Below are positions 8,790 to 57,748 of a DNA stretch of 64,000 nt, one piece after another (within the stretch, counting starts at the first letter, position 1; each line of letters starts with the position of its first letter). This stretch comes from Cheilinus undulatus (taxonomy: Eukaryota > Chordata > Actinopteri > Labriformes > Labridae): the NCBI RefSeq assembly GCF_018320785.1, contig NC_054870.1, positions 4,226,433 through 4,290,432 of the forward strand, given 5' to 3'. A program made the translations under genes and the position numbers. A model generated the notes under the pieces. That model was not told the origin of the DNA. It did not search any database and worked only from the letters and a program-made list of their open reading frames with translations.

Positions 8790-10558
8790 TTAGCACAGTG
8801 GGCAGCCAGCCTCTTGGTGCTTGGCTAACAGTGAGATCCTGGAGAATGTCTTGAAGCAGCTTGAGCACTGGTACTTTTTTACTTCGGAGTGTGTTTGGAG
8901 GTGAGCTCGCAGGTTGGATCGGTCGGCAAAAGCCCTGCTGCAGCGGAAGCATGAGAATGGTTTCTCCCCTGCAGAAAGAGCACAGAGATTCAGGTCAGTC
9001 TGGTGCTAGGGGGCTATGCAATGGGTGATATGCACCATGAAGTGAACTGTTTGGCTTAGCTGGAATGGCTCATTTTACTTCAGATGCATACTGGTTCCAA
9101 ATATCTGTTATCGATCACCTTAGTAATAAGCATACAGACTCCCATATCTGTTTTTATCACATTTAGGTCTCCTGAAAACACCCCAGGTATTGTTATCCTT
9201 TATGAAATTCTGCTTCATATGTTGGCTTCATTGTCTTTATTTGGTTGTTCTGTCTGTAAATGCCCTTGATGAAGATGTTTTTATTTCTCTTATTGTGTCT
9301 AAATGCAGTTTCTCCTAAATTTTACTGCACTGAGGTTCCCCTGACCACCATAGCCACAGCCAAAATAAGATTAAAAGTTTTTAAAAAGTGTTAATGTGTG
9401 TATTTTACTGACCTGTGTGTGTTCTGATGTGCCCCTGAAGCAGCCAGGGTCTGGAGAACGCCTTTCCACAGAGTTTACACACACACGGCAGCGTGTGTGT
9501 CCTGATATGCATCTTGAGTGCTCCCAGACTGACGTACTCCTTCTCACAATACTTACAGCTGAAGGACTTCTTACTGCTCCAATCACAGTGAAGCTGTTTG
9601 TGTCTGTCCAGGCCTGAGAAGCTCAAGTGCCCCTCATGACAGTCCAAACACTCAAAGTTTTCCTGGCTGCTGCTCGGAGGGACGACTGGAAAGAGGGCCA
9701 GGAGAGGGAGGGATGGAGGGAGGATGCTCTCTCTCCTTCTGTAGTCTCCTATGACACGCTGGATTTCCAGGCCCACCTTGGAACAGGGTTCGACCTGTTT
9801 GCAGGCTTCTGCAGCGCTTCTTCTGTTAGCTTCAGAAGAGTAGCCTGAGAAGGAGAGGGGGGAGGCTTCTTTCAAGGATGAAGGCTGCAATCGTTCTGCT
9901 TCATGAGGAGAGGAGGGGAGAAACTGGGATCTCTGTTGTAGGCAGGGGCTTGAAGCTGGACGATAATGCTGTGTGAGGTTGTAATTCTGCTGTTGAGGGT
10001 CTTTGTGCATGTCCCTGGAGCTCTCTGTGAATTCAGCACACATTTGGCATTTTAGTTTCTGAGGTGCTGCTGTTGGAGGTTATGATCATTCGTCTAGAGA
10101 TCCACATGAAGAACATTTGCACTTTTCTAAAATTGATTCTTCTTTTGGCAAGAAGATGATGGTGAATCAGTTACACATTTGGCCCTTAAGGTAGGGTGAC
10201 CATATATCCCAATTTACAAGGGACAGTCCCGTTTTCAGGCTCTGGTTCCTGACAAAAATAAATAAAATGCCAATATGTCCTTTTTTTTTTTTTTAACAAA
10301 GCCTGTCCCAATGGAAACAGAGAAAATAGCCAAAACATGCCACTTAAAAAGGCTGCTCAGTAGGGCACCTGTCAAAGAACCTCAAGTTATACATCCATAA
10401 AGAATGGATTGATTATACCTTGTTCAAAACAGCTTTTTTAAGTAAAAACAGCTTTTTTGGGGGTGGGTTGTTGTAGTTTAAGTTAAAATGGCCATAGTGT
10501 ATTTTCAGGCCCAATTTGTTTTTGTAAAATGGCACCCCTGCTGCTGCTGCTGCTGCTG

Positions 10559-27900: not shown

Positions 27901-29899
27901 CCCAGCCTAAGACTCTATCCACTGTCCTATCAACAACAAAGGTACAAAAGCCCCAAAATACATTTGAAGCCTTACCTTGTGCTGATCATATTGCTTCTGC
28001 AGTAGTTGGTCTCTGACTGCAACACATTGCTTGAGGAGCCGCAGGTCAGCGTTGGGAAAAATCTGTGACAAAGGGACAGACATCATGGATTTGTGTTTTT
28101 AACACAGGGCTGTAGTAATAACATACAGAAGACATCTGAGTAGAATATATTGACTGACTGGGGTTTCCTGATTAAATAAATAAAGGTCTAACAAATATTC
28201 TTCTCTGTAATCCTGTATCAGTTCAGAGCTGGATTTGATGTTCATATGAGGTTTAGATCTACCAATCAAATAACTGTTTAAGATGTTTAAAAGTTTATAT
28301 AATTTAGTATCACTGCTGAGAAGAAAGTCACCAGAAACAGACTAAAGATATAAGATATGCACCATACAGATGTTGCTCTTCACATTTCTGTGTTCTCTTC
28401 TCCTTAGGGTTTTGCCTTCTGTACCACTCTTACTTGTGACGATGAATGACGAGCCAGCTGAAGCACCCAGATACCAAATGACTGTACTTCAGTTTGTACA
28501 TCTATGTTATACATAATCAGTACACCTTCAGTGATGACCTGATGTTAGAACTCGTTTGCCTTCCTCTCATGCAAAAAACAGCCGGCGCATCTTTTTATCA
28601 TTAAGCAAATGAATCTTTAGGGTCACAGGTTAGACTGAAATGACATCTCAATTCAAGACAGTTATGAGGGCATACCAGCTTCAGTCTGACAGTTTCTTTT
28701 GTTCGTTTGTAATGTTTTTTTAAACATATAAATGGATGTAAACAAAGCATTAAGAATTACCACTAGGTATCTAAATGCCCCAAATGGATATAAACAAGTG
28801 TTGGGGTTTTGTCTAAAAGAGTTAGGAGTGCTAATCTCGTCTACCTGTAGCCAGGGGAAGATGTCCACCAGGCTGTCCTTGGCCACCGTATCCACGATAC
28901 CCTGGCTGTAGGAAAGCATGGCCTCAAACTCCGGGTCTCCTCGGCGGTAGGAGGACTTGAAGCAGAGAGCACAGATCACATTGGTGACAGCCCGGGTCAG
29001 CTCAGGGGACAGATCCAGAGCCAGACCAGCAGCTGCAGCCCCAGACAGGACAGTGCAGAGAGACTGAGCCTCTGCAGAGACTGAACAGGACACAGGAGAC
29101 ATACAATCTTTACTTACAAACATGTTTTTAATGCTTAATCCCTGGAAATCCCTGACACTTTTACATCCTCCTGCTGCCTCCAGAACACACTGCATAGAGT
29201 GTCCCCTCCATTTAACTGATAGTGAAACCACTCATTTAGGGAGCTAACCCTTCACATGATTGCATGTGTTAATGCCTGAACAGATGCATCATTCAAACTG
29301 TGCAGTCTTGGTTTAGCAGTGTCAAAAACCATCTAGACTTTGCACTCACTAATCTTTACGATGGCTGCAGAGCCTTCTCCAAACATGCACAGAGCTCCAT
29401 GCACTATTTTTCTGTGAAATCTCCAGGTAGCACTGTAGTCTCCAAATGCAATGTCCTTCCCATCTCTGGTCAGAATATCTGTGGTTACCTTCATCACACA
29501 TGGGACAAGGAGGGAGAGGGTACAAATATGAAAGACTGCAGCTGATAAGGAGAAAAAAAAACAGTGAAGCAGGAGTATACGCACAGTTCTGGGTCTGCCT
29601 GCAAAGATCTTCCCCTTCTTCATTAACACTTCTTTGGCATGAGTGTGATGGTTGACGATGATGACACGATGGGAGCCCATCATCAGAGAGTACATCTGTC
29701 CATATTTCTGCTGAAGCTCTTTGAAAAGCACATGAGGAGCATGTGGGCTCTGCAAACTCAGAAGACTGCCGATGAGCGGTAGGGATGGAAGGCAAGGTGG
29801 CTCCCGAGGACCGTGCGAAGACACCCTGAGCTTCACCAGCAGCGCTAACAAAGTCAGACTCACGGCCAAAAACAAACACAGACACAGAAACACAGCCAT
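20895..29899 (-). CDS. cyp17a1: Steroid 17-alpha-hydroxylase/17,20-lyase (cytochrome P450 17A1)
   Basis: Eight coding exons with GT/AG borders join without phase errors: 29899-29585, 29488-29350, 29080-28845, 28062-27976, 26945-26727, 25138-24969, 22744-22641 and 21175-20895, giving 516 aa. That is the usual fish CYP17 length, and exon 2 (139 nt) equals the length I recall for mammals. Residues 1-25 form a hydrophobic ER anchor followed by a proline-rich turn. The I-helix oxygen-activation motif GAGVETT is at 310-316, the ExxR motif EVLR at 368-371, and the haem loop F444-G453 has ligand Cys451. The enzyme 17-alpha-hydroxylates pregnenolone and progesterone and cleaves C17-C20 to androgen precursors in gonad and interrenal ER. 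I chose Met at 29899 over an in-frame Met at 30025 because the anchor begins there. Borcs7 next door supports 17a1; the 17a2 paralogue is the main alternative. Confidence 0.95.
21536..22395. mobile_element. hAT-like element in cyp17a1 intron 7
   Basis: Ends CAGTAATTCCCAACC and (right) TTTGGAACCACTG are inverted; flanking 8-mers GGTTAGAG and GGTAAGCA match only partly. An (AAT)n microsatellite is at 21859-21906. Confidence 0.55.
22845..22997. repeat. Fragment of the TTTAAAGG MITE family
   Basis: In cyp17a1 intron 6. Shares TTTTTGCATGTCTA and CCTCTGTTTCAGCCCTGCTC with 11364-11817 and ends ATAATATGTCCCCATTA. Confidence 0.6.
24470..24690 (+). repeat. Retroelement 3' fragment
   Basis: In cyp17a1 intron 6. 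Contains CCCTTGAGCAAGGCACTGAA and ends CAGGGATTAATAAAGT, features of abundant fish SINE/LINE tails. Confidence 0.5.
26056..26089. repeat. Perfect 15-bp inverted repeat with TTTT loop
   Basis: TTCCCCCTCCCATGT (26056-26070) and its exact complement (26075-26089) are separated by TTTT. It lies in cyp17a1 intron 5, in an otherwise plain stretch. Confidence 0.9.
27420..27810. mobile_element. Copy of the TIR element carrying a helicase-like start
   Basis: In cyp17a1 intron 4. Shares GTGAATCCATCT.GCAAAGCTCCCA, GGGCCCGGTTAGAAAGTGAC and TTGTTGCTCTGATTGG with the better-preserved copy at 30778-31290. Ends not resolved. Confidence 0.6.
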
Positions 29900-30075
29900 C
29901 TCTGCAGCTGAGGGCCCTGACACAGGGGTCTGGCTCAGTGGATGAAGAGCATTACAGAAGGAGCTGAGTAGCAGGGCCCTGAGCTGCTGCAGGGCCACGC
30001 TTTTATGTGGCTCTTTCAATGCCAAATCCTTGACTCTGTGTGTGAGGCTGTGCCATTTTCAACAAGATAAGAAAA
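29900..30075 (-). promoter_or_regulatory. cyp17a1 core promoter with TATA, SF-1-like and GATA sites
   Basis: Read on the gene strand, a TATA-like ATAAAAG lies at 30006-30000, about 100 bp before the start codon. TCAAGGAT, a close match to the SF-1/Nr5a1 half-site, is at 30033-30026. On the plus strand AGATAAG, a GATA site, is at 30065-30071. SF-1 and GATA4 control of CYP17A1 is established in vertebrates; use of these particular sites is inferred. Confidence 0.5.
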
Positions 30076-30451: not shown

Positions 30452-32364
30452 CACCACTTTCCAAATTACTATGCAGATTGGACTTTAGTGTCATAAACAT
30501 TCAGTTTTTGTTTTTCTAGTAAACGAAGGTGGTATTGTGTCTCAGGGCTCTTTGGATCACTGAAATCAATCTCAGACAACTGTGATCATTAGTTTGCCAG
30601 GTGAGCCCAATTAAAGGAAAACTACTTAAGAAGGACGTTCCACATTATTAAGCAGGCCACAGGTTTCAGTGATGGGAAAGAGTAAGGATCTCTCTGCTGC
30701 TGAAAAGCATTAAATAGTGTAATGCCTTGGACAAGGTATGAAAACATTAGATATTTCAGGAAAACTTAAGCATGATCTAACCTTGCAAAGCAGATGGATT
30801 TGACCATTTCCTTGTTCTTCACTGGTGAATCCATCTTGCAAAGCTCCCATCTGAACTGTTTGGGCCCGGTTAGAAAGTGACAGGACCAATCAGCTAGGAG
30901 GGGCAGTACTTTCAGGTGCAGCAGAGTCGTGACGTAAACAAGCAGCAGCAAGAGCTGGTGCAGTTATGGAGGAAGAGATTAGTGTGGATGCTGCTAAAGC
31001 GCCAGTTTTATCAGAACTTGACATTTCTTCGTTAAAAGAACAAAGAACAGCAGTGAGTTGTTTTCTCTTCAAAAACGACAAAAGTCGGTACTTACATGTC
31101 TGTAGACCCCATGTTTCGCCTTATTGCTCAGTAGCTGCGCACGTGCAGCTTGCTAGCAGCTACGTCACGTGCTTTGTTGCTCTGATTGGCCCATAGAGAT
31201 GTGACAGACAGACAGCCTTTTCTCAAACGTTTCTTATTAAAGCTTTCCCAGATGGATGTGTGAAACACATCCTTCTGGCATGTCAGGTTAAGCATGATCA
31301 TCGTACTGTGAAGAAATTTGTGGCTGATTCAGAATAGACAAGTTTGTGCAGATAAAGGCACAATGAGGAAGGTTTCTGATTAGCTGCTAAAATGTCATTA
31401 CAAAGCAGCAAACAGGTATTTGAAGCTGCTGGTGCCTCTGGAGTCCCACCAACCTCAAGGTGTAGGATCCTCCAGAGGCTTGCAGTCGTGTATAAACCTA
31501 CTATTCAGCCACTCCTAACCAATGCTCACAAGCAGAAACGGTTGCAGTGGGCCCAGAAATACATGAAGACTCATTTACAAACAGTCTTGTTTACTGATGA
31601 GTGCCGTGCAACCCTGGATGGTCCAGATGGAGGAGTAGTGGATGGTTAGCTGCAACGTCAGCAAGGAGGGGGCGGAGTCATGTTTTGGGCCGGAATCATG
31701 GGGAGAGAGCTGGTAGGACCCTTAGGGTCCCTGTGTGAAAGTGTGAAAATGACCTCGGCAAAGCATATAGAGTTTCTGACTGACCACTTTCTTTCTTGGT
31801 ACAAAAAAAAGAACTGTGCCTTCCGTAGCAAAATTATCTTCATGCATGACAATGCACCATCTCATGCTGCAAAGAATCCCTCTGTGTCATTGGCTGCTAT
31901 GGGCATAAAAGGAGAGAAACTCATGGTGTGGCCCCCATCCTCCCCTGAACTCAACCCTACTGAGAACCTTTGGAGCATCCTCAAGCTAAAGATCTATGAG
32001 GGTGGGAGGCAGTTCACATCAAAACAGCAGCTCTGAGAGGATATTCTGACATCCTGCAAAGAAATTCAAAGCAGAAACTCTCCAAAAACTCAAAAGTTCA
32101 ATGGATGCAAGAATAGTGAAGGTGATATCAAAGAAAGACTCCTATGTTAACATGGGACTTGGCCTGTTAAGATGTTTTTGATTGAAATAGCTTTTGATTT
32201 CAGTAAATATGACCTCCTAATGCTGCAAATTTAACCAATTTCTTCAATAAAATTTGAATTATGCTCTAACAGTTGATGACTTGAAAATTATAATGTCATT
32301 TGCATCGACTATTTATGAAAATAAGAGAAAAAAAATCATTTACATAATAATTTGGAATGTGGTG
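30452..32364 (+). mobile_element. Tc1-like element with degraded transposase, interrupted
   Basis: Left end CACCACTTTCCAAATTACTA and right end AATTTGGAATGTGGTG are inverted and bounded by TA (30450-51, 32365-66). Plus-strand transposase remains at about 31392-32036 (MFWAGIMGRELVGPLGS; FMHDNAPSHAAK; ELNPTENLWSILK) with stops and a frameshift. A second element is inserted at 30778-31290. It lies between cyp17a1 and borcs7. Confidence 0.88.
30778..31290. mobile_element. TIR element with 9-bp TSD carrying the start of a helicase-like ORF
   Basis: AGCATGATC occurs at 30769-30777 and 31291-31299, and the ends are TAACCT...AGGTTA. An ATG at 30966 opens a frame with SELDISSLKEQRTAV, which resembles the N terminus of RecQ-like helicases seen in fish repetitive sequences, broken after about 40 codons. 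It looks like a deletion derivative of a larger element. A 9-bp TSD argues against hAT and Tc1; superfamily not assigned. Confidence 0.6.
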
Positions 32365-41676: not shown

Positions 41677-42878
41677 CACTATATTGCCAAAAGTATTCGC
41701 TCACCTCCCATTCTTAATCCATAGGGTTTCATATGACGTGGGTCCACCCTTTGCAGCTATAACATCTTCAACTCTTCTGGGAAGGGTTTCCACAAGGTTT
41801 AGGAGTGTGTTTATGGGAATTTTTGACCATTCTTCAACAAGCACATTTGTGAGGTCACACGCTGATGTTGGAAAGAAGGCCTGGCTCTCAGTCTCCACTC
41901 TAATTCATCCCAAAGGTGTTCTATGGGGTTGAGGTCAGGACTCTGTGCAGGCCAGTCAAGTTGATCCACACCAAACTCTCTCATCCATGTCTTTATGGAC
42001 CTTGCTTTGTGCACTGGTGCACAGTCATGTTGGAACAGGAAGGGGCCATCCCCAAACTGTTCCCACAAAGTTGGGAGCATGGAATTGTCCAAAATGTCCT
42101 TGTATGCTGAAGCATTCAGAGTTCCTTTGACTGGAACTAAGGGGCCAAGCCCAGCTCCTGAAAAACAAGCCCACACCATAATCCCCCCTCCACCAAACTT
42201 TACACTTGGCACAATGGAGTCAGACAAGTACCGTTCTCCTGACAACCGCCAAACCCAGACTCGGCCATCAGATTGCCAGATGGAGAAGCACGATTCATCA
42301 CTCCAGAGAAAATGTCTCCACTGCTCTAGAGTCCAGTGGCGGCGTGCTTTACACCACTGCATCTGATGCTTTGCATTGCTCTTGGTGATGTATGGCTTGG
42401 ATGCAGCTGCTCGGCCATGGAAACCCATTCCACGAAGCTCTCTACCACTGTTCTTGAGCTAATCTGAAGGCCACATGAAGTTTGGAGGTCTGATTGACTC
42501 TGCAGCGACCTCTGTGCACTATGCGCCTCAGCATCCGCTGACCCTGCTCCGTCATTTTACGTGGCCTAACACTTGGTGGCTGAGTTGCTGTCGTTCCCAA
42601 TCACTTCCACTTTGTTCTAATACCACTGACAGTTGACTGTGGAATATTTAGGAGCCAGGAAATTTCCTGACTAGACTTGTTGCCCAGGTGGCTTCCTATC
42701 ATAGTACCATATTGGAGTTTACTGAGCTCCTGAGAGCGAGCCATTTTTCCACAAATGTTTGTAGAAACAGTCTGCATGCCTAGGTGCTTGATTTTATACA
42801 CCTGTGGCCATGGAAGTGATTGGAACACCTTATTTCAATTATTTGGATGAGTGAGTGAATACTTTTGGCAATATAGTG
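41677..42878 (-). mobile_element. Near-full-length Tc1-like transposon
   Basis: Ends CACTATATTGCCAAAAGTAT and (right) ATACTTTTGGCAATATAGTG are inverted, 1,202 bp apart, with TA on the left. The minus-strand transposase reads MARSQELSK from about 42741, then, after a frameshift, [11 protein letters not shown]... (42428-41811), then, after another, LVEEWSKIP...KGGPTSYE (to about 41720). DDE landmarks are present: [15 protein letters not shown] and [11 protein letters not shown]. At least two frameshifts make it inactive as read. Confidence 0.92.
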
Positions 42879-43646
42879 TGTTTTGTTTTATCTACAGTCC
42901 AAATTACAAAAATTTGTATTAAATAACTGCATGGTTGAACATTATGGACTTTCAGGTTGGTCCTGATGGGCCCTAAGGATAGAGCCCCCTGCTGTAGACC
43001 ACATCAGGCCTCACTGTGCTGGTGTAGAACAGATGAAAAGTTGTAGGAAGAATTCCCTGAACTCCATGACACTCAGAAACCTATCCAAGAGTCCGTTATT
43101 GGCTACATCATCAGCTCCAACATGTGATAAAGAGAAATGGGACAAAGTTATCAGCAGCCAGAAAGACAAACAGCAGCTGCTTGACCCTGACGCTGTCCCT
43201 GAGGCCACGCTGCTGAGTCTTGTTAGAGAATCCTGCACGTGTTTCACTCTGTGTTGAGGGTTTGCTGCTGTTAAGCTGACTCAGGATGTGTTGTAAGGCT
43301 GGACTAACACAGGGAGCATACTGGCCTTCAGTACAGCCAGTCAGCAGAACACATGTCTGTAGAAGCATCATCAGATTCATATCAGACTGCTTAAGGATGC
43401 TCTAAGGGTTTATGCAAACAGATATTTTACATTTTTAAAGAGATTTTACATTTTTCCACACCAAAATACATCCAACTATTTATACTAGTTAAATATAGTG
43501 TGTCCAGTACTCTTTTAAATGTCGCCAAAGTCTACCATCAATATTAAACCTTTAAGAGTTTTATAAATGTATTCTTTTTAGTTGTTTTTTTCTCCTGCAA
43601 ATGTTATAGTGTTATCTTAAAATGCTCTTCATTTCTATCTGAACTA
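42879..43646. other. Intergenic, orphan open frames only
   Basis: A minus-strand frame 43380-43111 starts with a signal-peptide-like MNLMMLLQTCVLLTGC, and overlapping frames lie at 43247-43011 and 43033-43257. I recognise no family and no splice structure. Confidence 0.3.
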
Positions 43647-44112
43647 CACTGTAAAAAAAATTCCGTTAAATTTACGGTAAAACGCTGGCAGCTGTGGTTA
43701 CCAGAGATTTACTGTAAAAATTACGGTGAGAATGTATGAGAAAAAACGGTGTTTTCATTCTACAACTGTAAATATTACAGTTCAAACCTGTTTTTTTTTA
43801 ACTGTAAATTTCTGTTAAAAAAATACAATATTGTAACCGTTTATACAAGGATTTGCTGTAAAAATAACAGTTATACTGTAACCATATTTACGGTAATTTG
43901 CTGTACAACTTACTGTAATTTGATGTAGAAGTTACAGCTCTATTACAACATTTTCTACAGGGATTGGCTGTAAAAATACGATAATGAAACAAACCTGTTT
44001 ACGGTAAATTACTGTAAAAACACCAGAAATCCTGTAAACCTAAATACAATCTATCTCAGTAATAAAAACAGTAGACCCGTATAATGTTAAACGGTATTTT
44101 ATTATAACTACT

Positions 44113-44499
44113 TAAATTTTACAGTAAATTACTGGCAGCTGTGGTTACCAGAAATTTACCGTAAAAAATACAGTACAAAACATGAGAAATTACAGCTGAT
44201 ATTTGCAGATTTTACGGTAGTAGCAAAATACTGCCCAACTTTAAATTTTACAGTAAATTACTGGCAGCTGTGGTTACCAGAAATTTACTGAAAAAAATAC
44301 AGGACAAAACATGAGAAATTACAGCTGATGTTTGCAGATTTTACAGTAGTAGCTTAATACTGCCTTACTTTAAATTTTACAGTAAATTACCAGCAGCTGT
44401 GGTTGCCAGAAATTTACTGTAAAAAATACAGTACAAAACATGTGAAATTTCAGTTAATTTGCTAGATTTTTGCAGTAGTGCCCTAATACTCCTACTTTT
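44113..44499. repeat. 129-bp subterminal tandem repeat, three units
   Basis: The motif TTTTACAGTAAATTACTGGC recurs at a spacing of exactly 129 bp (ACAGT at 44121, 44250 and 44379), each unit continuing with GCAGCTGTGGTTACCAG. A diverged partial unit lies at 43661-43740. The third unit decays toward its end. Confidence 0.85.
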
Positions 44500-44707
44500 A
44501 ACAAAAGATTCAAGCTCTCTGATAAACAATAAGAAACTCTGCAGTTATATGTTTGCTATAAAAAACCTTTCAACACATCTGATAACTTGTCTGTTTACTC
44601 ACAAAGCAGTTTAGATCTTGGAAAAAAAAGCTTGTGTCCATATGTATGACAGGTAGTCCTTGGTGTAATGCATGAAGATGAAACAAAGTCACTTGCCCCT
44701 AAATGAT

Positions 44708-44842
44708 TCAAGAGTAATGAGTCCAGTCTTGACTGAAGAAGGCCTTCCACTTGGGAAGCTTCACATGGCCAAGAAACTTCATCTTCTTGAAGACTCGAGC
44801 ACAGTTCATCAGGTGTTCTACTTTGGACTGGCTCCATCCTCT
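44708..44842 (-). CDS. Candidate terminal exon of the unrecognised element-borne gene
   Basis: After a pyrimidine-poor but usable acceptor cluster (CAGAGAG), one frame reads about 44 residues, rich in Lys, Phe and Trp (VEHLMNCARVFKKMKFLG in the middle), to a TGA at 44710-44708. Third codon positions are GC-biased relative to the AT-rich surroundings, which favours this frame over a longer Ser/Leu-rich one that overlaps it (44837-44595). Which frame is translated is not certain. Confidence 0.35.
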   Translation of the reverse strand, partial: RGWSQSKVEHLMNCARVFKKMKFLGHVKLPKWKAFFSQDWTHYS

Positions 44843-45298
44843 CTGCAGGAAGTACATATACAAAACAAAGTTAGAGTGATTCAGTGCTTCAGTTTAATGC
44901 CTACACAGATGTAAATTTGAAAAACTAGGCTCTAATAAGCCATGCTTACAATCAGCACAACAGAATAAAATAAACAGTGTGTACAGTACATACAGATCAT
45001 TTCTATAATAGAATATGGTGAAGAAACGCAAATGTACCCACAAGTGACAGCTATTAAGTCAGCAATCACCTAACAACAGCCAATTACTTTTTCCGTTATT
45101 GATTATAATGAGACAGTTATGACATATTAATTGCAATTTGCTTTTCCTTTATAGTTTAGAGCTGTGGTGCCCAGGCTTGTATCCACTGAGCTCCCCCCTC
45201 CTTCACATATCCAAGAAGATATGGACCCACACAAAAAAGTGACATAGCTATTGCTGTAAAAACTAAACATAAATTTGAATTGATGTCATTGTTTAAAG

Positions 45299-45784
45299 AA
45301 GTTTTAATTTTGGCAGATATTTTTAATTTTAGTCTTAGTTTTAGTCTTTAAGTGAAATGAATTTTAGTTTCAGTCACATTTTAGTAATTTCTGTCCATTT
45401 AGTTTTAGTCCATAAAAAGTCCTCACATTTTAGGTTTTACTTTTAGTCCAAGCATTTATTGTCTTGCTTAAATCTGGTACCAAGTCATAGTGGGATGTTC
45501 TCTGCACCCTGCCAAACCTGGGGTCCCTGCTTTCTACAGCTGAGAGACAGAAGAGCTACAGCTGCATTGTTTTTTGACATAATTACCCACAGTGGAGAGA
45601 TATCATGGATTTTGAATGTCTGACGAAAACTACATTACATTCTAGTCAAAAACTAAACTTAGTTTTTTTCAGTTTTAGTCATCACAGATCTATTTTTGTT
45701 AGTCTTAGTCTAGTTTTTGTCATGGAAAACAAAGCTGTCGATGAACATTTTTAGTCATAGTTTTAGTCGACGAAATTAACACTG
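45299..45784. mobile_element. hAT-type MITE with TSD GTTTAAAG
   Basis: The segment is flanked by identical 8-bp GTTTAAAG (45291-45298 and 45785-45792), the hAT signature. It ends ACGAAATTAACACTG and begins AAGTTTTAATTTTGG, a diverged inverted copy. Inside, TTTTAGTC-type motifs repeat densely. Confidence 0.8.
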
Positions 45785-46050
45785 GTTTAAAGCTACACAC
45801 CATAGCCCAAACCACAAGTGTTAGCAAAAGACCTTGGTATGAACCATTCATAAGGGTTATATTGTGATTTTAGGTAGATGAACCACAAGATAAATATTTG
45901 CAAACTATGCTCTTTATTTATATATTTACTTGTAAGACCACCCAAATAAATATAGAATTTGCTTTTACATGTAAATATAATATATAATTTTATATATAAT
46001 TTCTATATAATTTTCTTCGGGGATGAATAAAGTTATTATTGTATTGTATT

Positions 46051-47616
46051 AGGGTGAGCCTACCCATTAAGCCCAGGCACCATTTAAGCCCACTTGCGAC
46101 TTTGAAGTCAATTTAAAAAAAAAAAAAGAAGAGGGGCCTTTCTTATGCTATACATTATTTTGTCCAATCACACAATTTCTTAATTATATGTCAGTTTTTG
46201 TTTGACACCAATCACATTTGTAGATATTGAAAAAGGCCCGCCTACATTTGTGCAGTCTCAAGGAGGCTCAGATAAAGTCGCCTCAAAACTTTGGTGTTTT
46301 GGGACCCCTCAGAAAGAACCTCTTTTCAACCATTTTCAGCCACTGACTTGTTAAGTACTTTCATATTATGTAATTTGAGAGATTATTGATTTGTTTTTTT
46401 GTGTATAAACAGGTAGTTTTTTGTAATTTCTTACTATTTAGTTTTATGTGAAAAGATGAGTCATGCTAGCTAGCGTAGCAAGCTAATCACTAGTCAATAC
46501 ATGTAGCCCTACTGATAGATACACTGCTTAATGATTAAAAATGATAAGTACACAAACTAAGTGTTTTCTGATTCATTTTACATAAATCTTACATAAAACT
46601 TTGAACAAGAATTCCTTGATAATTCAGAAAGTTTGGCAGAAGAGGAATAACTGTGATGGCAAGTTTTGCAGCATATTTAGCCTACAGGCATTTCTTTAAA
46701 CATTTGTTTAATTTTGGTGAGAACATATTATCTTCATTTCCCTGGTAGTCACTGTAGTACCATTTAAGCCCAGTGTGTTCCATTTAAGCCCATCTGATGT
46801 GTTTCAATAGAAAAAAATGAAATTTTGAGGTTTGATAGCTTTTCGCTGTAATCCTGTGTTGGATGTTGTTATACTAACTTCATTAACACGAGTACATCAC
46901 AGATCACACACTGACCAGAAGAATTGTTATGTCAGTTAATTTTGCATAATTATTTGTTTATAGTGAGAAAAATGCCAACAAAAAAGAGGAATTACAGCAA
47001 CTGTCCTAAAATCATCATTGTTACAGCCAAACATTAAATCCAAGTTCAATAAGATATTGTTGATTCACTGTAATGTCATTTAATACTTTTAAAAACAAAC
47101 ACATTTTTTTTATTTTGTCAATATTGAATCAAATTTTGTCAATATTAAATAAAATGTTCAATGAAATGTTAAATACTGAAGCCAATGAAAATTAGGTTTA
47201 GGCCTACTTAGTCATGTTTGTGGTGGTCCATTGTTACAAGCCAAACATTAAAGCCAAGTTCAAAAAATAAATTGTGTTTAACATGTATAACATGTTACTG
47301 AATTAATATATGTTTACTACTTGAAAAATGTAATAATTTTTTAAATTTCTGTCAATAAACGTGGTTGTGGGCTTATTTGGAACACACGTGGGCTTAAATG
47401 GTACTTAGGTACCAATTAAGCCCATGCCAGACTTTTGACTTTATTCATAACATTTCTTTAATTTGTTCTCTAAAATATGCATAAGTAAATAAATATACCT
47501 TCAAATGAGGGATTAATCCTTCATTCTAACAAATGATCATGTTTATAAACCATCTTAGTATCTATGAAAAATACGTGAACTTAGATTTTGGTGGGCCTAA
47601 TGGGTACACTTATCCT
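46051..47616. mobile_element. Non-autonomous TIR element with recurring TTTAAGCCCA motif
   Basis: The left end (AGGGTGAGCCTACCCATTAA at 46051) and the reverse complement of the right end (AGGATAAGTGTACCCATTAG ending at 47616) match at about 20 of 25 bases. ACCATTTAAGCCCA-like motifs recur inside at about 46070, 46760, 46785 and, inverted, 47385. No coding capacity seen. A target duplication could not be fixed. Confidence 0.5.
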
Positions 47617-47929
47617 AAATGCTTTGGGCTACAAAAGGATTTTGCTGTAACAAAGATGATGGGTGCTGAATTTTAAATCAATCATAATGAAAACATATGA
47701 CTCACACAGAAAACTGTATTGGCCCCCATATGGTGTGATCATCAGAACACTGAGAACAAGCTGGACAAAGCAGTGGCATGGCAGTATTCTGGGTATTTCT
47801 ACATGACCAGATTAATGCAGTGCTTGGTGTAAACTACATAAAATAAACATAAAATGGCTTCATGTTGCTTAAAGAAAGATTAATCTAAAGAATTTATTGA
47901 GGTATGTACAAATACTGTGCAAGGCTTAC

Positions 47930-49411
47930 CATTATTTTTCCTTGATAACTGGCGTCTTTTTAGAAGAGTGGAATACCGGAGACAGTATAAAGTAATGGAG
48001 TCCTAGTCACTACTAGCAGAAGAAACAGGACCTTAAAAAAGAGTAAGGAAAAATAGAAAGACAAGGTAAAGCACCAAATCATGTCAACTTAGAAGTTTTG
48101 AACACTTATGTATGCACTGATTGCAAAGTACTATCCAATTTTTGAATTCACTCAAAAAAGGAGGGGACCCAATCTCTTCTTGTCCCGTGAGCTGAATGTC
48201 TTGTCACATCCCTTGTGTTTTGTGGCAGAAGCTACAGCAGACACAAAATGCAGACATACATGTAGAGTGATCCAGCTGTTAAGCAGTTATCAGACGGGTG
48301 TTGCTGTGTTTATATGTTCTTCTAAAATCAACACTAAGCTGTGACTGGTGCTACCCTCTCCACTTAGAGTGTGTGTTGATCCCACAGCTCTGTAAGTCAT
48401 CTTGCTTGCCCTTGCGCTTTTTCTGCTCACAACAGTTTTGGTTTAGAAAAAAATGCTGCACATCTATTTCTTTTTTGTTTTTTAAATTTGAAAATTTGGA
48501 TACTATCAAACCTAAAAATCTGAACCAGAATCTTTATTGTCATTGTACACAAGTACAACGAAATTTTGCACAGTTCCATTCAGTGCAATTATTATTACCT
48601 CTGCCAAGGAGGTTATGTGATCGCAGGATTTGTTAGTTTGTTTGTTGGCAACATAACCCAAAAAGTTATGGATAGATTCTGATGAAATTTCCAGGGAATG
48701 TCAGAAATGGCAAAAGGAAGAACTGATTTGATTTTGGGACTGATCCAGATCATCGTCTGGATCTAGGAATTTTTAAAGGACTTTTCACTATTGGGAGATA
48801 GGGCTAATGGCGGAGGTCTGCGCTCTCTGAGTGCTTTTCTAGTTTATTATTGCAACTGCTCTGGGATATGTGCTGTTTTTCAGTCTGTTAGTTTTGGCTC
48901 TTATTGTCCTGAACCGTCTTCCTCAGGATAGCAGTTGTTACAGGTGACGATAACACAGTTATAAAAATAACTGATATTGTATCATATGATGCACACAGCT
49001 GGAAGGAAATAAAACATTTTGCCAGCATTACACTATACCATATAACTACCTCTAAAGAGGAAAAATTATTACCTCTGTAGGAACTCCTGAGTGGATCCCA
49101 ATGCTGGTCAATGCATAGCATGAGCTGCCTTGAAGCCTAGCAAGAGGCTCCTGGGAGGATGATAAAAGTAGAAAAGAATTACAAGCAAATCATCCATTAC
49201 CATCCAAATGAGTCCTTAAAGTGTTTCTGAGATCCACTTACTACAAAAAACAATACATGGGGCAGGCTTTCCACTGGTACCCCATCTGGCAAGAATGTTT
49301 CAACAAGGCAAAAGAGGTTGTCTTCTTTTTTGTCGAAACAGGAGAGAAGCCCTTTATGTCCTCTGAGCAGCCCTCCAACTGTCCTCTCTGAATCTTGAGC
49401 TTTGTGGCATC
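47930..49411 (-). CDS. Three linked exons of an unrecognised gene inside a CACTA-like element
   Basis: Three minus-strand open segments have consensus acceptors and donors and compatible phases. 49411-49242 (170 nt, enters in phase 1, ends in phase 0) encodes a segment with LLSCFDKKEDNLFCLVE and ends PHVLFFV. 49150-49073 (78 nt, phase 0) encodes EPLARLQ...SGVPTE. 48002-47930 (73 nt) encodes DSITLYCLRYSTLL and a basic tail. A terminal exon is likely at about 44842-44708, where a K/W-rich frame ends ...SQDWTHYS then stop; joining it in phase needs the third of three clustered AGs or a missed exon. A possible first exon is 51244-51174 (Kozak-like AAGATGG, donor GTAAGG) in a CpG-rich block. I do not recognise the protein; it is not an obvious transposase. 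Upstream exons between 49.4 and 51.2 kb are unresolved. Confidence 0.5.
48521..48850. repeat. Two adjoining interspersed repeats
   Basis: 48521-48590 resembles a common fish retroelement 3' segment (CTTTATTGTCATTGTACA...). 48590-48850, with CTCTGCCAAGGAGGTTATG at one end and CTCTCTGAGTGCTTTTCTAG at the other, matches a short repeat I recall from many animal genomes. Class not assigned. Confidence 0.5.
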
Positions 49412-50536
49412 CTGCAAAAATCAAGTGAGCTATTAAATCTTTAGTGCCATGACACTGACGTGCACATATCCCCATTGTGCATTTAGGAGGTGCTGGAGCC
49501 AACAGGTAGTGCCCAGGACCACCACAGTCCACCACCACACTATCCACCTTATTCCTGGGGCCGCTACTGTAAATGTGAATATGGGTGAAACCTCCGGTGC
49601 CAAAACAGAAGTAGGCTACATTAAATACATGTATTCTAGTACAGCAACTAACTATGGATGCTAACAAAGAACGACAGTTGTTTCAATAGGAATTCTTCTG
49701 GAATTTGTAAATATTTATATTTTTGTTATCAGATGTTCACATTGTTTGTATTATAAGCTGTAGATAAGTAAATAAGGTGGATACCACATTATTCCTGGGG
49801 GTCTACTGTAGCTATGAATGGAAGTGGAACTTCCAGTACAGTAACAATAATAGCAAAAACATGATTTTTCCAAAGGCTTACTAAAGTGATTTAGTGTCAA
49901 CAGTGGTTGTTCTGAAATAAATAAATATTTGCTGTAATAAATACTGCTTCGTTTTTGTTAAATCAATGAGCTGAAATGTTTTAATCATATTTTCTGTAAT
50001 GCTCAGTACCTGTTGCTATGTTCATGGTACTAATATTATGACAAAGTTAAATATGTCTCTCACAACATGCTGTCCACTGTCTAAGTGCATCGGGGATGTG
50101 ATTCTTTTAGTATTAATTTATCATTAATTCTTAATACAAAACTTGACATTTACCAAACTGAAGAGCTGGCAACTTGAGTCATGGATAATTTTATAAATAT
50201 AATTCCCATATTTAAGAGGGATTAGTTTGTAAAATGAGAATTTCAGCAACTCCACAAACTAGAAATGTATCTTTTTATACCGATATAAAGCTACTAAAGT
50301 TAGCTAAATATGCCCTTGTAGGTTATCTAAAGTAATGTCATCAATTTGAACTCTCCAGTAGAGGCTAGAGAAATAATAATAATATTATCCCGTCTGAGGT
50401 GAAGCAGTCTAACTTTATGTAGTTTGGTATTAAAATTGCTTTAATAGTCACGTTTAGCATCTCGTTTCTATGCAAAGTCCCATTTAGATAGAACGGAGCG
50501 GAAGTAGCGCCCATATTCATGGAGGGGTAGGAATAA

Positions 50537-51076
50537 GCTGGAAAGCCTGCCTCAGGGGACTCTGAACACAGATATGAATGTGACTCTGAACACAGATATG
50601 AATGTGACTCTGAACACAGATATGAATGTGACTCTGAACACAGATATGAATATGACTCTGAACACAGATATGAATATGACTCTGAACACAGATATGAATA
50701 TGACTCTGAACACAGATATGAATGTGACTCTGAAGGGGAAAAATCCTTCACCTTAGGTCGCTCTGAAGCATCAGTGCTGCGGCGGGACTCTCACTTTTTG
50801 GCTAGGGGACATCACGGTCCTCACGGTCACTCCCACCTCATCTGGAAAACTCCGTCCTTTTTCTTTCCCTCTTCCCAGTGTTCCCAGTATCCAACCGCCC
50901 ATTTTTTGTGCATTTTTCAAAAGTCTGAAGTGGGCGGAGTTAGCTCTGAGCTTGGGGTTCACTTATGGACCCCAACACAGCAAGTGTTAAACGTTCTCCA
51001 CGCTAAAATGACAGCAAAAAATACAAATCATACAGCAATGTTGGCTGGTCTAGAATTGAAACAAAATGCCTCCTGA
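50537..51076 (+). CDS. Long plus-strand open frame through the minisatellite, uncertain
   Basis: The frame stays open for about 179 codons from just after a TAA at 50534 to a TGA at 51074, without needing an early Met (first Met about 50774+). It opens next to an acceptor-like CTGCCTCAG, runs through seven SEHRYEC/YD octapeptides, then a His- and Ser-rich region and a C terminus ending LELKQNAS. It may be an exon of a plus-strand transcript or simply a consequence of the repeat's 3n length. No family is recognised. Confidence 0.2.
   Translation, partial: AGKPASGDSEHRYECDSEHRYECDSEHRYECDSEHRYEYDSEHRYEYDSEHRYEYDSEHRYECDSEGEKSFTLGRSEASVLRRDSHFLARGHHGPHGHSHLIWKTPSFFFPSSQCSQYPTAHFLCIFQKSEVGGVSSELGVHLWTPTQQVLNVLHAKMTAKNTNHTAMLAGLELKQNAS
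50558..50734. repeat. 24-bp minisatellite, 7.4 copies
   Basis: Seven complete copies of a 24-bp unit starting GACTCTGAACACAGATATGA, then a partial copy. Units 1-3 and 7 end AATGT and units 4-6 end AATAT, so a sub-block was probably amplified. The length is divisible by three, so it is open in more than one frame: an SEHRYECD octapeptide on plus and an SYLCSES-type repeat on minus. Confidence 0.95.
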
Positions 51077-51169
51077 CCCATTTAACTTCTACCTATAAAC
51101 ACGTGGTGTTACTGAATGAAAAGAACTCAAGAAATATTTGACACTACGACAAAAGAAGTTCTACATACC

Positions 51170-51450
51170 TTACCAATAGCTCGTAGGCTGATGCTCCGGG
51201 TGACGTCGAATTAATACACGCCAATGTCCTGCTTTGTATTCCATCTTCGTTTGCAGCCCGTTCTGCGAGCAGACAGCAACTTTATGAAATATTTCCGCGC
51301 ACACGAGACCACAGAAGACACGAAAACGCTGTAGTTTACCAGGCAGCCGTTGGCGGTTTGATTTTCCAACGAACCACACACGCATGCGTATAAGGTCCTT
51401 CTTTCCCCGCGCCTGCGCGAAACCGTATTCGCGCATGGCAATTGACTGCA
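51170..51450 (-). promoter_or_regulatory. CpG-rich block, possible promoter/first exon of the element-borne gene
   Basis: This is the only strongly CpG-rich stretch in the 9-kb element, with repeated CGCG, GCGC and CGCATGCG sequence near 51380-51440. On the minus strand an ATG at 51244 in good context opens a 23-codon frame (MEYKAGHWRVLIRRHPEH...) that ends at a GTAAGG donor at 51174/51173. The block could instead serve a plus-strand transcript; promoter function is inferred from composition only. Confidence 0.3.
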
Positions 51451-52926
51451 ACCACAGTGCGCAAACGCATTTCGAGAAAGCAGCACTGTTTGTGTACATG
51501 GAGGGAGGTGACTGAAAACTGTTCACTCTGGAGCTCGTTTCCAAATTGTTCCATTTTTAAACACCCAAACCGCTGTTCTAGTACAGACAGAATAGAAAAC
51601 GTTCCTGTGTAGACAGGGTTGAATGGCGACGGGAAACAGTTTTTCAAAATTATTTTTATATATTTATTTTTTATATTGATACAACTTTATTGAACAGATT
51701 CCAATAGTTAATACAGCATTGGCACATGAAACAAAACGTATTTACTAGACATAAATAACCCCACATACAGGTAAAGAGAAGTTTAGATTAAATTACATAA
51801 GGTATGAGAAGTAAATTAAAATTTCAGAAACTAAACCATGGTTTCATATTGTTTTTTTTTTTAAGAAAATTTTTTTTCCCTTAGAAATCAATTTGATAGA
51901 CTATATGTACAGTTCCCATTCATTTTTAAAACTGATTATGGAGGGTTTCTTGTCATTCTATTTGCATTCATGTTTAAGTTGTTTAACCAGTAAAAATAAC
52001 TATTGTATTTATATAATGTATATACTATATATTCAACTGTGTTATATACATATTATATATACAGTATGTATCTCTCTCTCTCTCTCTTTATGTATATATA
52101 AAATAGTTCTTTCCAATTACCTTGTTATATTTCCTATCGGTAATATGTGTCATCCAATTTCAGTTCTGAAAGATTGACTGAAACATTAAAGTACATCAAT
52201 GTATTTTGTGTTAGATGCATTAAAGGAAGTGGAATGGCTTTACAAATGCAATGGCATTCTTTGTGAGAGCAATTAACATCATTCTTTTCCAATAAATCAG
52301 TTAAACTAAAATAATTGACCACTTTCATCCATCAAATTAAGAACAAACAAAATGATTTTTGGTACCATTCTTGGTTTCAATAAGGTTTTCATATTAACTG
52401 TAACTGTCCGTTTATTTCACAAGGCAGCATCATGTGGTGTAGCACTGAGAAACAAATGTGAACATAACAACAAATTGGTGCTTGTTCACAGGTTTTGCAG
52501 GTTGACAGGTTTTTACTGTATTTTCTACAGAACTTTCCTGATCATGCAGTATTTTTAACCTCTTGTCCCTGCTAAAATTACGGTATGTGATTGCAATTTT
52601 TTTCACAGATTTTTACTGTGAATTTAAATGTACATGAGAGAAAAGTCTGTAATTTTAACAAAATACTACTGTAATTTTTAGAGTAATTGCCCGTCTTGAA
52701 GATTACAGTATTTTTCCTTTATTTTCACAATCTTCTTTCGTTTAAACGGTACAATTTTGTAATTATTACGTACTTTAATTGTAAAAATTTATGTTTCATA
52801 CCGTTGCTTGATTTACAGCAATTCTGTGTATTTTATACAGTAATATATGTTTATTTGTTTTACGGTCTTTTACTGTTGCTATTTGACAGTCTTTTGCTGT
52901 ATTTTCTACGGACATTTTTTACAGTG

Positions 52927-55900
52927 TAGTCATTTTAAACAAATCAAAGAAAGGTGCAATGGTCTGCATAATGCACATTTACATGCTAAAAAATGTACCC
53001 TCTGTCTTTGGACATTAAATCCACATTTTTATGCAATAATGTGCATTAAAGTCATAGTGCAGAGGTGTCCAAACTTTTTCCACTGAGGGCCACATACAGA
53101 AATATATAAGAATGTTGGGGCCACTTTAATATCCACAAGGTGAGGTATATGAAAGTCTTATAAAACCATTTAACTTATGCTTAGTGAGTATGCCTAAATG
53201 GATAGTTCAGTGAGGAAACACAGATGATTTGCAACTATAAATATTTCTTTATCAGCAGTTATTAATTAGGACTTAGTGCTGTTATTTATGTTTGCCAATT
53301 TGGCTGCCCTGGGATCCCCCCTGCCATTCTACAAGCCTACATGGAAAGTTTCAGGCAGGAACAGCGCACGTTCCTGGTCTTCCTATGCCGAAAAGCAAAC
53401 TCTAAGGCAGGGAGAGAAGCTTCAAAAACACAAGAGCAGAGCAGGCATCAATGACAACAGAACAACACTAACAGAGTCAGAGGCAGTATGAAGGAGGAGC
53501 TGGGGTGGAGGAGGGTTGCAAAAGCAGCCTTGCATTAGATCAGCTGATCGGGGAAGAGCTTGACTCCATGCCCTGCCTGAACTAAAGCTAAATGCTCGAT
53601 GTAATGGCTGACAAGGCAAATAGACAACCATTTCCAGGTTTTTTGGGGGCCCTAGCTGCCACTGGCTCAGCCCCTGAAATATTATTTGTACTGGTATTTG
53701 CTGCTAAATCCGGGGGTGATAGTATTCCGGCACTGTGCCGGCTTTCCGGCGTGGCGGCGTTTGACTGCTGGGAAAAAAAAAAAAACTACTTTTGTGAGCT
53801 TGTTTATGCGGGACAGCCTGATGTCAAGTCCCGAGTCAATAAAGATGACTGACAGTGTCCATCAACCACACCAGGCTTACTAGCCAATCAGAAGTACAGC
53901 GGAGGCGGGTCTTGCGGAAGACAAAGCTGAGGTTGATTTCCTGCTCTGCCGTTCAGTGAATCTACCGCTGATGAATCCCTATCAGGGCTTAAGCAGTACA
54001 GGTGTCATTATGTTTAAGTGGAGCCGCTGCTATAACCCAAAGTCTGAGTTTAAGGCACGTAGTCTCAACGATGTGAAAAACGTGTTTCTACTAGCTGACT
54101 TCTCCGTTAGCCTCGTCCTCTCCAGTTACGCACAGAGTGAGAGGACAGAGCGCTCAGTCTGCGCTGACCTCTGATCAAAGATTCATGTATAAAAAAGGCA
54201 TTTTCTCTCCGCTAATATCGTAGCTGCTTCTTTTATGTTAACACGCTAATACGCGTCTGAGTGTAGCATACAGGTCTGATATGACATTCATTTAGATTAG
54301 CTCTATAAACATCAGAACCCAGTGTGATACGACAATATGGATCAAACTCTTAACAGGGCTTAATGGGTGTTTAATAACGTTAGGAATAGTTTCCTATTAC
54401 TCCCAGTATCAGTAAATATATAAGGGGTGTCCAAACTGTGGCCTGTGGGCCAACTGTGACCCTTGGTCCTTTTGAATTGGCTTGTAAGGAATCCATTAGA
54501 AATACCCACATAAGAACATAAAACTTAACTATATTTCTTAGTTTGACTAGGGATGCACAATATTGGGGTTTATATAATACAGGGATATTTACAAATTAAA
54601 TTTAGCTGATATCAATACCAATATATAAATGTAGTTTAGACCTAACACTTCAGTCCTTGAAACACAGTCTAAGGATGAACAAAGAAACAAACTTCAGTCT
54701 CTAGAACACTAAAGTTGAAGTTATAAGGATGAACACAGAAAAAGACTTCAGCTGTCCGTTGTTGGCGCCAAAAGTAGAAAAAAAATTGATGAATACAAAC
54801 AAAAGGATTCCAGCAGCAAATAGCAGCACAAACTGAGCTCATTTGCTCCTCTGTCTGATCTCCAGGTCTGATTTCTAAATCACACTGCTCTGATCATCTT
54901 CAAGCACCAACACTTCTATAAAGTCAGTCAGCTTCCAGCTGTTTGCTCTTGTTTTGTGTCTGAATGTGGAGATGAACCATCAGCGTCTCTCTTCTCTGTG
55001 ATTGGCTGTTTGCTTTGGTAGACATTAATGAGAGCTGTATTTTAGTCTGTGGTTTTGTATTTCAAGTACATTCACTTACTAAGCATGTATTTTGGTCACA
55101 TGTTGGTTTTAGAGCTGTAACAAACATTTTATATATTGTGCTACAGGTTTTTGTTCTGTGCTACAAGATTGTCAACCTCTGTAGCACCAGCGCTACGGGC
55201 AGAAAAAGTTTACGTGCAGCCCTGCTTTAATGGATGGTTGCTAATCAAATTTTATTGAACAACCGCTAGAAGAAGCCTCACATGCCCCCATAACATTGTG
55301 ACCATTAACTTTTATTATATTTCAGTCAGATCCAGTACTTTTGTTGCTATTGGCCTTCCTATGTATACGTCCCCCACCCGGGAAAAAGTTCAGGCTCAGG
55401 ATTTTTTTTCACTATCGGCCATGTAAATCTCCTCAGGGAGTTTGAAATCCAGATATTTTTATTTTGTTGCCAGTATTTTACCGTGTACAGCGTTGTCTCA
55501 GTTTAGTCACATCCATCAGTTCTTCTTGTTGAGATGTTTGTCTACAGAATTAGCATGATAGCTTCCTGTTTAAATGTGGCCATATTTCATTTTATTTCTA
55601 GAATTTGATGTGGGACCATCAAACTTGGACTGTGGACTACATTTCGCCCCTGGCCCGCAGTTATAGGTATAGCATGTGAAATTGGGAATACTGGCAAACA
55701 TCTAATGGTCAGATTCTTGATGTCAACACTGGTTCTGGTGGTGAATGTGGCCGTCAGTGGGAATTAAAAAATGTTTAACTGCTCAGTGTTTCTTTCTGTG
55801 GATGATGGAGGAGTCTATGGACAGGGATCCTCCTTATGTACGAATAAAATACTTGAGTTAATTTACTTAAAATCAAATAAATCTGATTAAATGCAGCTGT

Positions 55901-56612: not shown

Positions 56613-57748
56613 TAAACTTAAAACAAAAAATAAGGCAGTTTGTGTTTGGTACATTATTTCTTTGTTGTAACAATGCTTCTTGGTAGTAAATCTTACACCG
56701 TTGGAAAGCCTGTTTATTACCCTTTTAAATGATGCCATATTTGTAAGGATCATGCATTTGTGGGATGAGCAGCAGAGCTGAGTATGTGGAAAAATGTGCC
56801 AAATCTTCTCTGCCAATGCTAAACAGCTGATTTTGCTGTTGACTTTTTCGGTGTTTGGTGGATTGGATGATTGAAGTTTGAAGAAACAAGACATTTTGAC
56901 AATTCAACAGTTTATTTATTTAACAAACAGGAGCCTCAGTAGCGTGTGGAAGGACCATGCACAACAACAACAGCCTGGCTCCTCCTCCTCATGCTGGTCA
57001 CCAGCCTGGTCACACACTGCTGTGGGATGGCATCCCATTCTTCAACCAGCATTTGTCGCAAGTCAGCCAACGTGGTCGTGTTGGTCACTCCGGCACGAAC
57101 AGCACGCCTAAGCTGATCCCACAAGTGTTCAATGGGGTTAAGGTCAGGACTGCTGGTAGGCCATTCCATCCTCTCCACTCTCAAACTCTGGAGGTAGTCT
57201 CTGATAAACCCCACTCTGTGGGGGCGAGTGTTGTCATCTTGGAGGATAGAGTTCTTGCTGACAGGGTGAAAAAAAACAGTATTCTTGGGGTGTTGTCTTC
57301 TTAGGACGCCAAATTCGCAGTCTGTCTCTGACATCCCCCGTTACATGGAACTTGGCCTTCAGTTTGGAGATGGTACTAGGGTTCACTCCAAACAAAGCTG
57401 CAACTTATTTTTGCGGAACACCAGCTTGAAGTTGCGCAACCGATGGGCCCTATCCAGATCAGTCAAACGTTCCTGGGGGTACCAGAAGCTCAAAACAAGA
57501 GTCAATAGTAACAGCAAAATAAGCTGTTTGGCATTGGCAGAGAAGATTTGGCACATTTTTCATGGGCAAACCGAAATACTCAGCTCTGCTGCTCATCCCA
57601 TAAATTCATGATCCTTACAAATATGGCATCATTTAAAAGGGTAATAAACAGGCTTTCCAACGGTGTAAGATTTATTACCAAGAAGCATTGTTAAAACAAA
57701 GAAATAATGTATGCAACACAAAATGCCTTACTTTTTGTTTTAAGTTTA
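56613..57748 (-). mobile_element. Tc1/Tc3-like element with long inverted repeats
   Basis: Sequence 56613-56850 recurs inverted at about 57510-57748 (AACTTAAAACAAAAA, ATTATTTCTTTGTT, AACAATGCTTCTTGG, GGAAAGCCTGTTTATTACCC), so the TIRs are about 240 bp. Between them a minus-strand transposase C-terminal half (57334-56936) keeps LQDDNTRPHR and [20 protein letters not shown]. The N-terminal half is deleted or scrambled. Confidence 0.88.

Follow-up and report, generated by a model that had tools for sequence, protein, structure and literature searches.

A 64,000-nucleotide stretch of the Cheilinus undulatus genome (assembly GCF_018320785.1, contig NC_054870.1, positions 4,226,433 to 4,290,432 of the forward strand; the whole stretch is called the window and its numbering is used throughout) contains a 9.3-kb element at exact coordinates 43647-52926. 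The element belongs to a recently active family of large DNA transposons with ends of the CACTA type (EnSpm/CMC), and the 9.3-kb unit is amplified as a whole to approximately 150 or more copies. A preliminary description, made from the letters of the window, had proposed that inverted CACTG termini, a TA duplication and subterminal repeats bound this segment, and all three were found. The left terminal inverted repeat, CACTGTAAAAAA (43647-43658, plus strand), is perfect over 12 bp, and its perfect 12-bp inverted copy occupies the right terminus (52915-52926, minus strand). Reading of the junctions identified the target site duplication TA on both the left (43645-43646) and the right (52927-52928). 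Motif counts delimited subterminal repeat regions on the left (43647-44546, plus strand), where tandem repeats are also present, and on the right (52427-52926, plus strand). The leftmost 900 bp hold 23 sites of the motif ACNGTAAA/TTTACNGT and the rightmost 500 bp hold 5, compared to means of 0.54 and 0.28, respectively, expected from a first-order shuffle; the intervening 7,880 bp have a single site. A 129-bp tandem unit within the left region (44112-44479, 2.9 copies) differs in copy number among element copies. The ends CACTG...CAGTG were present in all 30 copies in which both junctions were read, and each of these was flanked by a perfect 2-bp target duplication (23 TA, 4 TG, 2 CA and 1 AA). 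When the element was compared by BLAST to the rest of the window, two internal stretches matched at 67-79% and the ends had no match.

Copies were sought in the whole assembly (1.17 Gb, 46 contigs). The left 39 bp of the element occurred exactly 159 times, while the reversed control did not occur at all. A search with ends of about 200 bp had been suggested in the preliminary description, and the left 204 bp did lead to further copies, matching at 100% in 40 places (the best 40 of 401 candidates). At 20 of these 40 places, 10 kb was fetched. Both ends were found in 20 of 20, and together with the window copy all 21 had a perfect 2-bp duplication (17 TA, 2 CA, 2 TG). Nineteen of the 20 were 8.3-9.9 kb long with a near-complete interior, some of them internally deleted; the lone short derivative met in this sample, L028 (L numbers designate fetched copies), is a 2.7-kb internal-deletion copy. 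To counter the selection by left end, ten other copies were picked by candidate exon 2, described below. Nine of them had both ends and perfect duplications (6 TA, 2 TG, 1 AA), and in the tenth neither end was reached, as the stretches read fell within expanded repeats. On contigs 1-5, exon 2 or exon 3 was located within 9.5 kb inward of 50 of the 51 exact left ends listed and exon 5 lay beside 47 of the 51, in a comparison that used 100 of the 159 left ends and the best 150 matches to each exon. By eye, 22 exon-5 copies lacked a listed exon 2. The expected left-end spot was read in 10 of these, and the end was present in six and absent from four. In one of the four, C2, an exact left end lies at a distance of 936 bp, slightly beyond the stretch read; the others, C21, C13 and C20, have no left end at the expected spot, and the surrounding 250 bp are a few bases off the window. 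Among the other 12, an exact left end adjoins nine.

Since both kinds of sample and the pairing of left ends with exons agree, the ends and the interior move as one unit, in accordance with the proposal of a single large CACTA-like element (19 of 20, 9 of 10 and 50 of 51 in the three comparisons). The preliminary description had also considered that the two ends might belong to separate miniature inverted-repeat transposable elements (MITEs), each with its own partner; this arrangement was looked for in the copies and is not the case. Short ends alone would give the same appearance if two unrelated MITEs flanked ordinary genomic DNA by chance, but the same interior was found between the same ends at scattered locations, every one with a duplication of its own, and this explanation can be considered excluded.

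The age of the family was assessed with 20 complete copies, 19 fetched and the one in the window. Their pairwise identity is 97.7-99.8% and the terminal branches in the tree of copies measure 0.08-0.83%; therefore, movement was recent. A 0.9-kb segment (46112-47042) is absent from L009, L012 and L018, which form one clade, so this internal deletion has itself multiplied. Another copy, L010, lacks exon 3. The stretch at 46049-47618 is bounded by imperfect inverted repeats of 27 bp (81%), contains repeated AAGCCCA-type motifs and is possibly a nested older transposon. A 24-bp tandem repeat at 50558-50734 varies in copy number among element copies; on each strand several of its frames are open.

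The interior was also expected to hold a CpG-rich block and splice-compatible exons, and both are there. The observed/expected CpG ratio is 1.41 at 51147-51446, compared to 0.30 in the window and 0.21 at 44148-50247, and it approaches or exceeds 1 in the element ends and the island. The CpG-rich block (51147-51646, minus strand) is a putative promoter. A candidate first exon inside this block has its ATG at 51244 and a donor at 51173 (minus strand). The other candidate exons, all on the minus strand with GT/AG borders, are exon 2 (49242-49411, acceptor and donor), which has two main length types that differ by 13 bp (the window copy has the short one); exon 3 (49073-49150, acceptor and donor), with 26 codons and phase 0 on both sides; and a terminal exon, exon 5 (44708-44842, acceptor and open frame), with 44 codons and a stop. 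The junction of exons 3 and 5 is in phase 0. Another exon, around 47930-48009, was dropped, since its length varies among copies and it is not needed for exons 3 and 5 to be joined in phase. The visible chain of exons 2, 3 and 5 comprises about 127-131 codons, and in the window copy one of the three entry phases leaves it open as far as the final stop. Twelve of the 20 complete copies, that of the window among them, have such an open chain. Nine short-type copies are open solely in entry phase 2 (the window copy, L009, L013, L014, L017, L018, L019, L024 and L025), three long-type copies solely in entry phase 0 (L016, L022 and L027), and seven are closed in all phases (L011, L012, L015, L020, L021, L023 and L026). 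As the two types need different entry phases, a single upstream exon could serve just one of them. The frame of the candidate first-exon ATG enters exon 2 in phase 1, which is closed in 19 of 19 copies read. Exon 2 differs in length unusually often among the window copy and L009-L040, and several of its variants recur in copies that are not each other's sisters in the tree, a hint of gene conversion or repeated slippage.

Judged from its sequence, the interior may be described as a gene-like segment, a candidate spliced gene that is still unproven. In L027, the sole copy so tested, 174 in-phase three-exon chains were counted, a number inflated by the 24-bp tandem repeat, and the opposite strand gave none; of 20 shuffles of this copy, 18 had no chain, one had three and one had eight. 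Codon usage, scored in L027 with a human codon-usage table, was best in the in-phase frame of the three in all three exons, although several non-exon windows scored above the exons. The 165 bp around exon 3 (49002-49166) contain one substitution among the 20 copies, compared to 12.3 expected; this segment was picked as the lowest of many windows and the difference is suggestive only. Seventy-six bp of exon 3 match exactly in the window copy and 30 of the 31 fetched copies read there, the exception being the copy without the exon. Exon 3 was also identical in 150 of 150 matches, which is not evidence because the best 150 of 191 candidates alone were scored. Of 150 matches to the exon-5 frame (best 150 of 197 candidates), 122 were identical to the query and none had a stop. 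An alternative frame of the same DNA was identical in 126 of 150, with seven at 95% and two with a stop (best 150 of 196). In this comparison of the two frames, no clear signal of frame-specific conservation or selection was found.

Database searches recognized no relative. Among ten reading frames of the window, the best Pfam match was DUF1137 (E 0.005), below its cut-off, and among 99 of the 109 L027 frames of at least 38 residues the best were 7tm_7 and SWT1_3rd (E 0.006). Values of 0.005-0.006 are about chance level for 99 queries, and neither best match was among the 10 of the 99 L027 frames that were scanned again. The spliced peptide was not assigned to any Pfam family, the PDB search with it gave nothing significant (best E 0.69), and Rfam and tRNA scans had no match. 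The claim of a spliced gene held for the exons and the CpG block; the word gene itself went further than the data, which include neither a homologue from beyond the family nor a clear sign of selection.

It is rather unlikely that there is no gene, in which case the exons would be open by chance and the interior a long non-coding stretch carried along between the ends. The missing homologues in Pfam and PDB would fit this explanation, as would the alternative frame of exon 5, which is about as conserved as the proposed one, and the well-placed ATG of the CpG island, which enters a closed phase of exon 2. Against it, the chains of L027 far exceed those of its shuffles, the exon frames of this copy have the best codon usage of the three even if some non-exon windows are higher, and the CpG island has the size of a promoter.

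How the element moves was approached through its coding capacity. As in the preliminary description, no transposase was recognized inside: none was identified by Pfam in the ten window frames, the 99 L027 frames or the spliced peptide. A profile search with PF02992 had no match in the genome and the control genomes were equally silent, so that result is uninformative. A 205-amino acid fragment of a putative fish EnSpm-like transposase, used as query, had 105 matches in the genome, 28-75% identical and in open frames of up to 914 amino acids. They are located on contigs 11, 17, 12, 6, 16, 20 and others, and none is inside the element of the window. Pfam did not recognize this fragment either; consequently, the silence of Pfam alone is weak evidence. 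The long open frames matching the fragment are a possible source of transposase.

With these elements in hand, we tentatively favor, at somewhat less than even probability, that the element was moved in trans while carrying a gene-bearing genomic segment, in the manner of a Pack-CACTA. Because no transposase was recognized inside, a transposase encoded elsewhere in the genome would recognize the ends and move the element. A gene-bearing genomic segment would have been caught between transposon ends and then carried as a passenger, consisting of a CpG-island promoter, a few exons, and introns with older repeats. Its passenger origin is suggested by the CpG-poor interior (0.21), the large introns, the older repeats, the insert bounded by inverted repeats, the two stretches matched elsewhere in the window and the separate CpG island; of these, the CpG-poor interior with older repeats leans toward a captured segment over a protein of the element's own. 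The amplification of both exon-2 types, the seven closed copies, the copy devoid of exon 3 and the multiplied deletion were also counted in favor. Several points weigh on the other side. No diverged parental exon or gene was present among the best 150 of 288, 197 and 191 candidates; the element's own copies fill these best matches, and a parental locus could lie beyond them. A family moved in trans should yield many short derivatives, and their near-absence leans the other way: the interior exons are kept beside 50 of the 51 left ends listed and one short copy, L028, was met. With the chain open in 12 of 20 copies, its decay in others is no proof that it can be dispensed with. Finally, the frames matching the fish EnSpm-like fragment may or may not sit between matching ends.

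The preliminary description had offered a captured gene and an unfamiliar protein of the element itself as two possibilities; the CpG content and repeats of the interior lean toward capture, and the parental gene that it supposes did not appear among the best matches. The second possibility, that the interior gene encodes the element's own transposase or accessory protein and that copies with an open chain are autonomous now or were until recently, appears doubtful. It would account for the near-constant presence of the interior exons at the left ends listed, for an exon chain that exceeds chance exclusively on one strand in L027, for the chain staying open in 12 of the 20 complete copies, including that of the window, and for the almost invariant 165 bp around exon 3. 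However, the visible chain of about 127-131 codons is short, neither a Pfam domain nor a significant PDB match was found, the two amplified exon-2 types cannot share an upstream frame, and frame-specific conservation is not clear. We attach little probability to the statement that either a small undescribed spliced protein, encoded by the open copies under a CpG-island promoter, drives a vertebrate CACTA-like element, or a vertebrate gene-bearing segment was captured between CACTA ends and rapidly multiplied with its promoter to well over 100 copies.

Capture of host gene fragments by plant CACTA elements is reportedly exemplified by Pack-CACTA in Arabidopsis and by Tpn1 in morning glory. Excerpts of a study of Chenopodium describe plant CACTA elements with captured host gene fragments (PMC8978399). 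The present element resembles those described there in having CACTA ends around gene-like segments; it differs in that the host is an animal and no parental gene was identified. CACTA/EnSpm (CMC) elements are characterized, in the portions of the sources available, by 5'-CAC..GTG-3' termini, 2-3 bp duplications, subterminal repeats and large size (PMC12730594, PMC1636069, PMC8978399). Inverted CAC..GTG ends, 2-bp duplications, subterminal repeats of several hundred bp and large size are shared by this element, in which, unlike in those, no transposase was recognized. The SmTRC1 paper suggests, in the part consulted, a CCC core for the animal ends that it delimited (PMC1636069), while the ends of this element have CACTG. 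Metazoan Pack-TIRs, according to excerpts of their description, are mostly single-copy, with four multicopy cases mentioned (PMC8277862). They too have terminal inverted repeats around internal non-transposon sequence in animals; the difference is that here a 9-kb unit is present in approximately 150 or more copies and no parental copy was found among the best matches. Among the papers listed for the end sequence, animal CACTA elements and CACTA gene capture, none described the element; Repbase and most subscription papers were outside the scope of this survey.

If the interior was captured, this would be an animal gene capture of the CACTA type with far more copies than the multicopy cases mentioned in the excerpts on Pack-TIRs (PMC8277862), and a CpG-island promoter would have been spread to more than 100 places. 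If the interior is the element's own, it would represent a new kind of transposition protein. As the family is young, polymorphic insertions and transcripts should be measurable.

Other features of the window were noted by eye. Open frames at 41811-42458, 31650-32036 and 56936-57340 look like remnants of Tc1/mariner transposases, and the segment 42003-42401 recurs at 93% in the flank of element copy L001. An open frame at 9405-10079 resembles a Snail-type zinc-finger exon, and another one at 29333-30058 resembles an N-terminal exon of a cytochrome P450.

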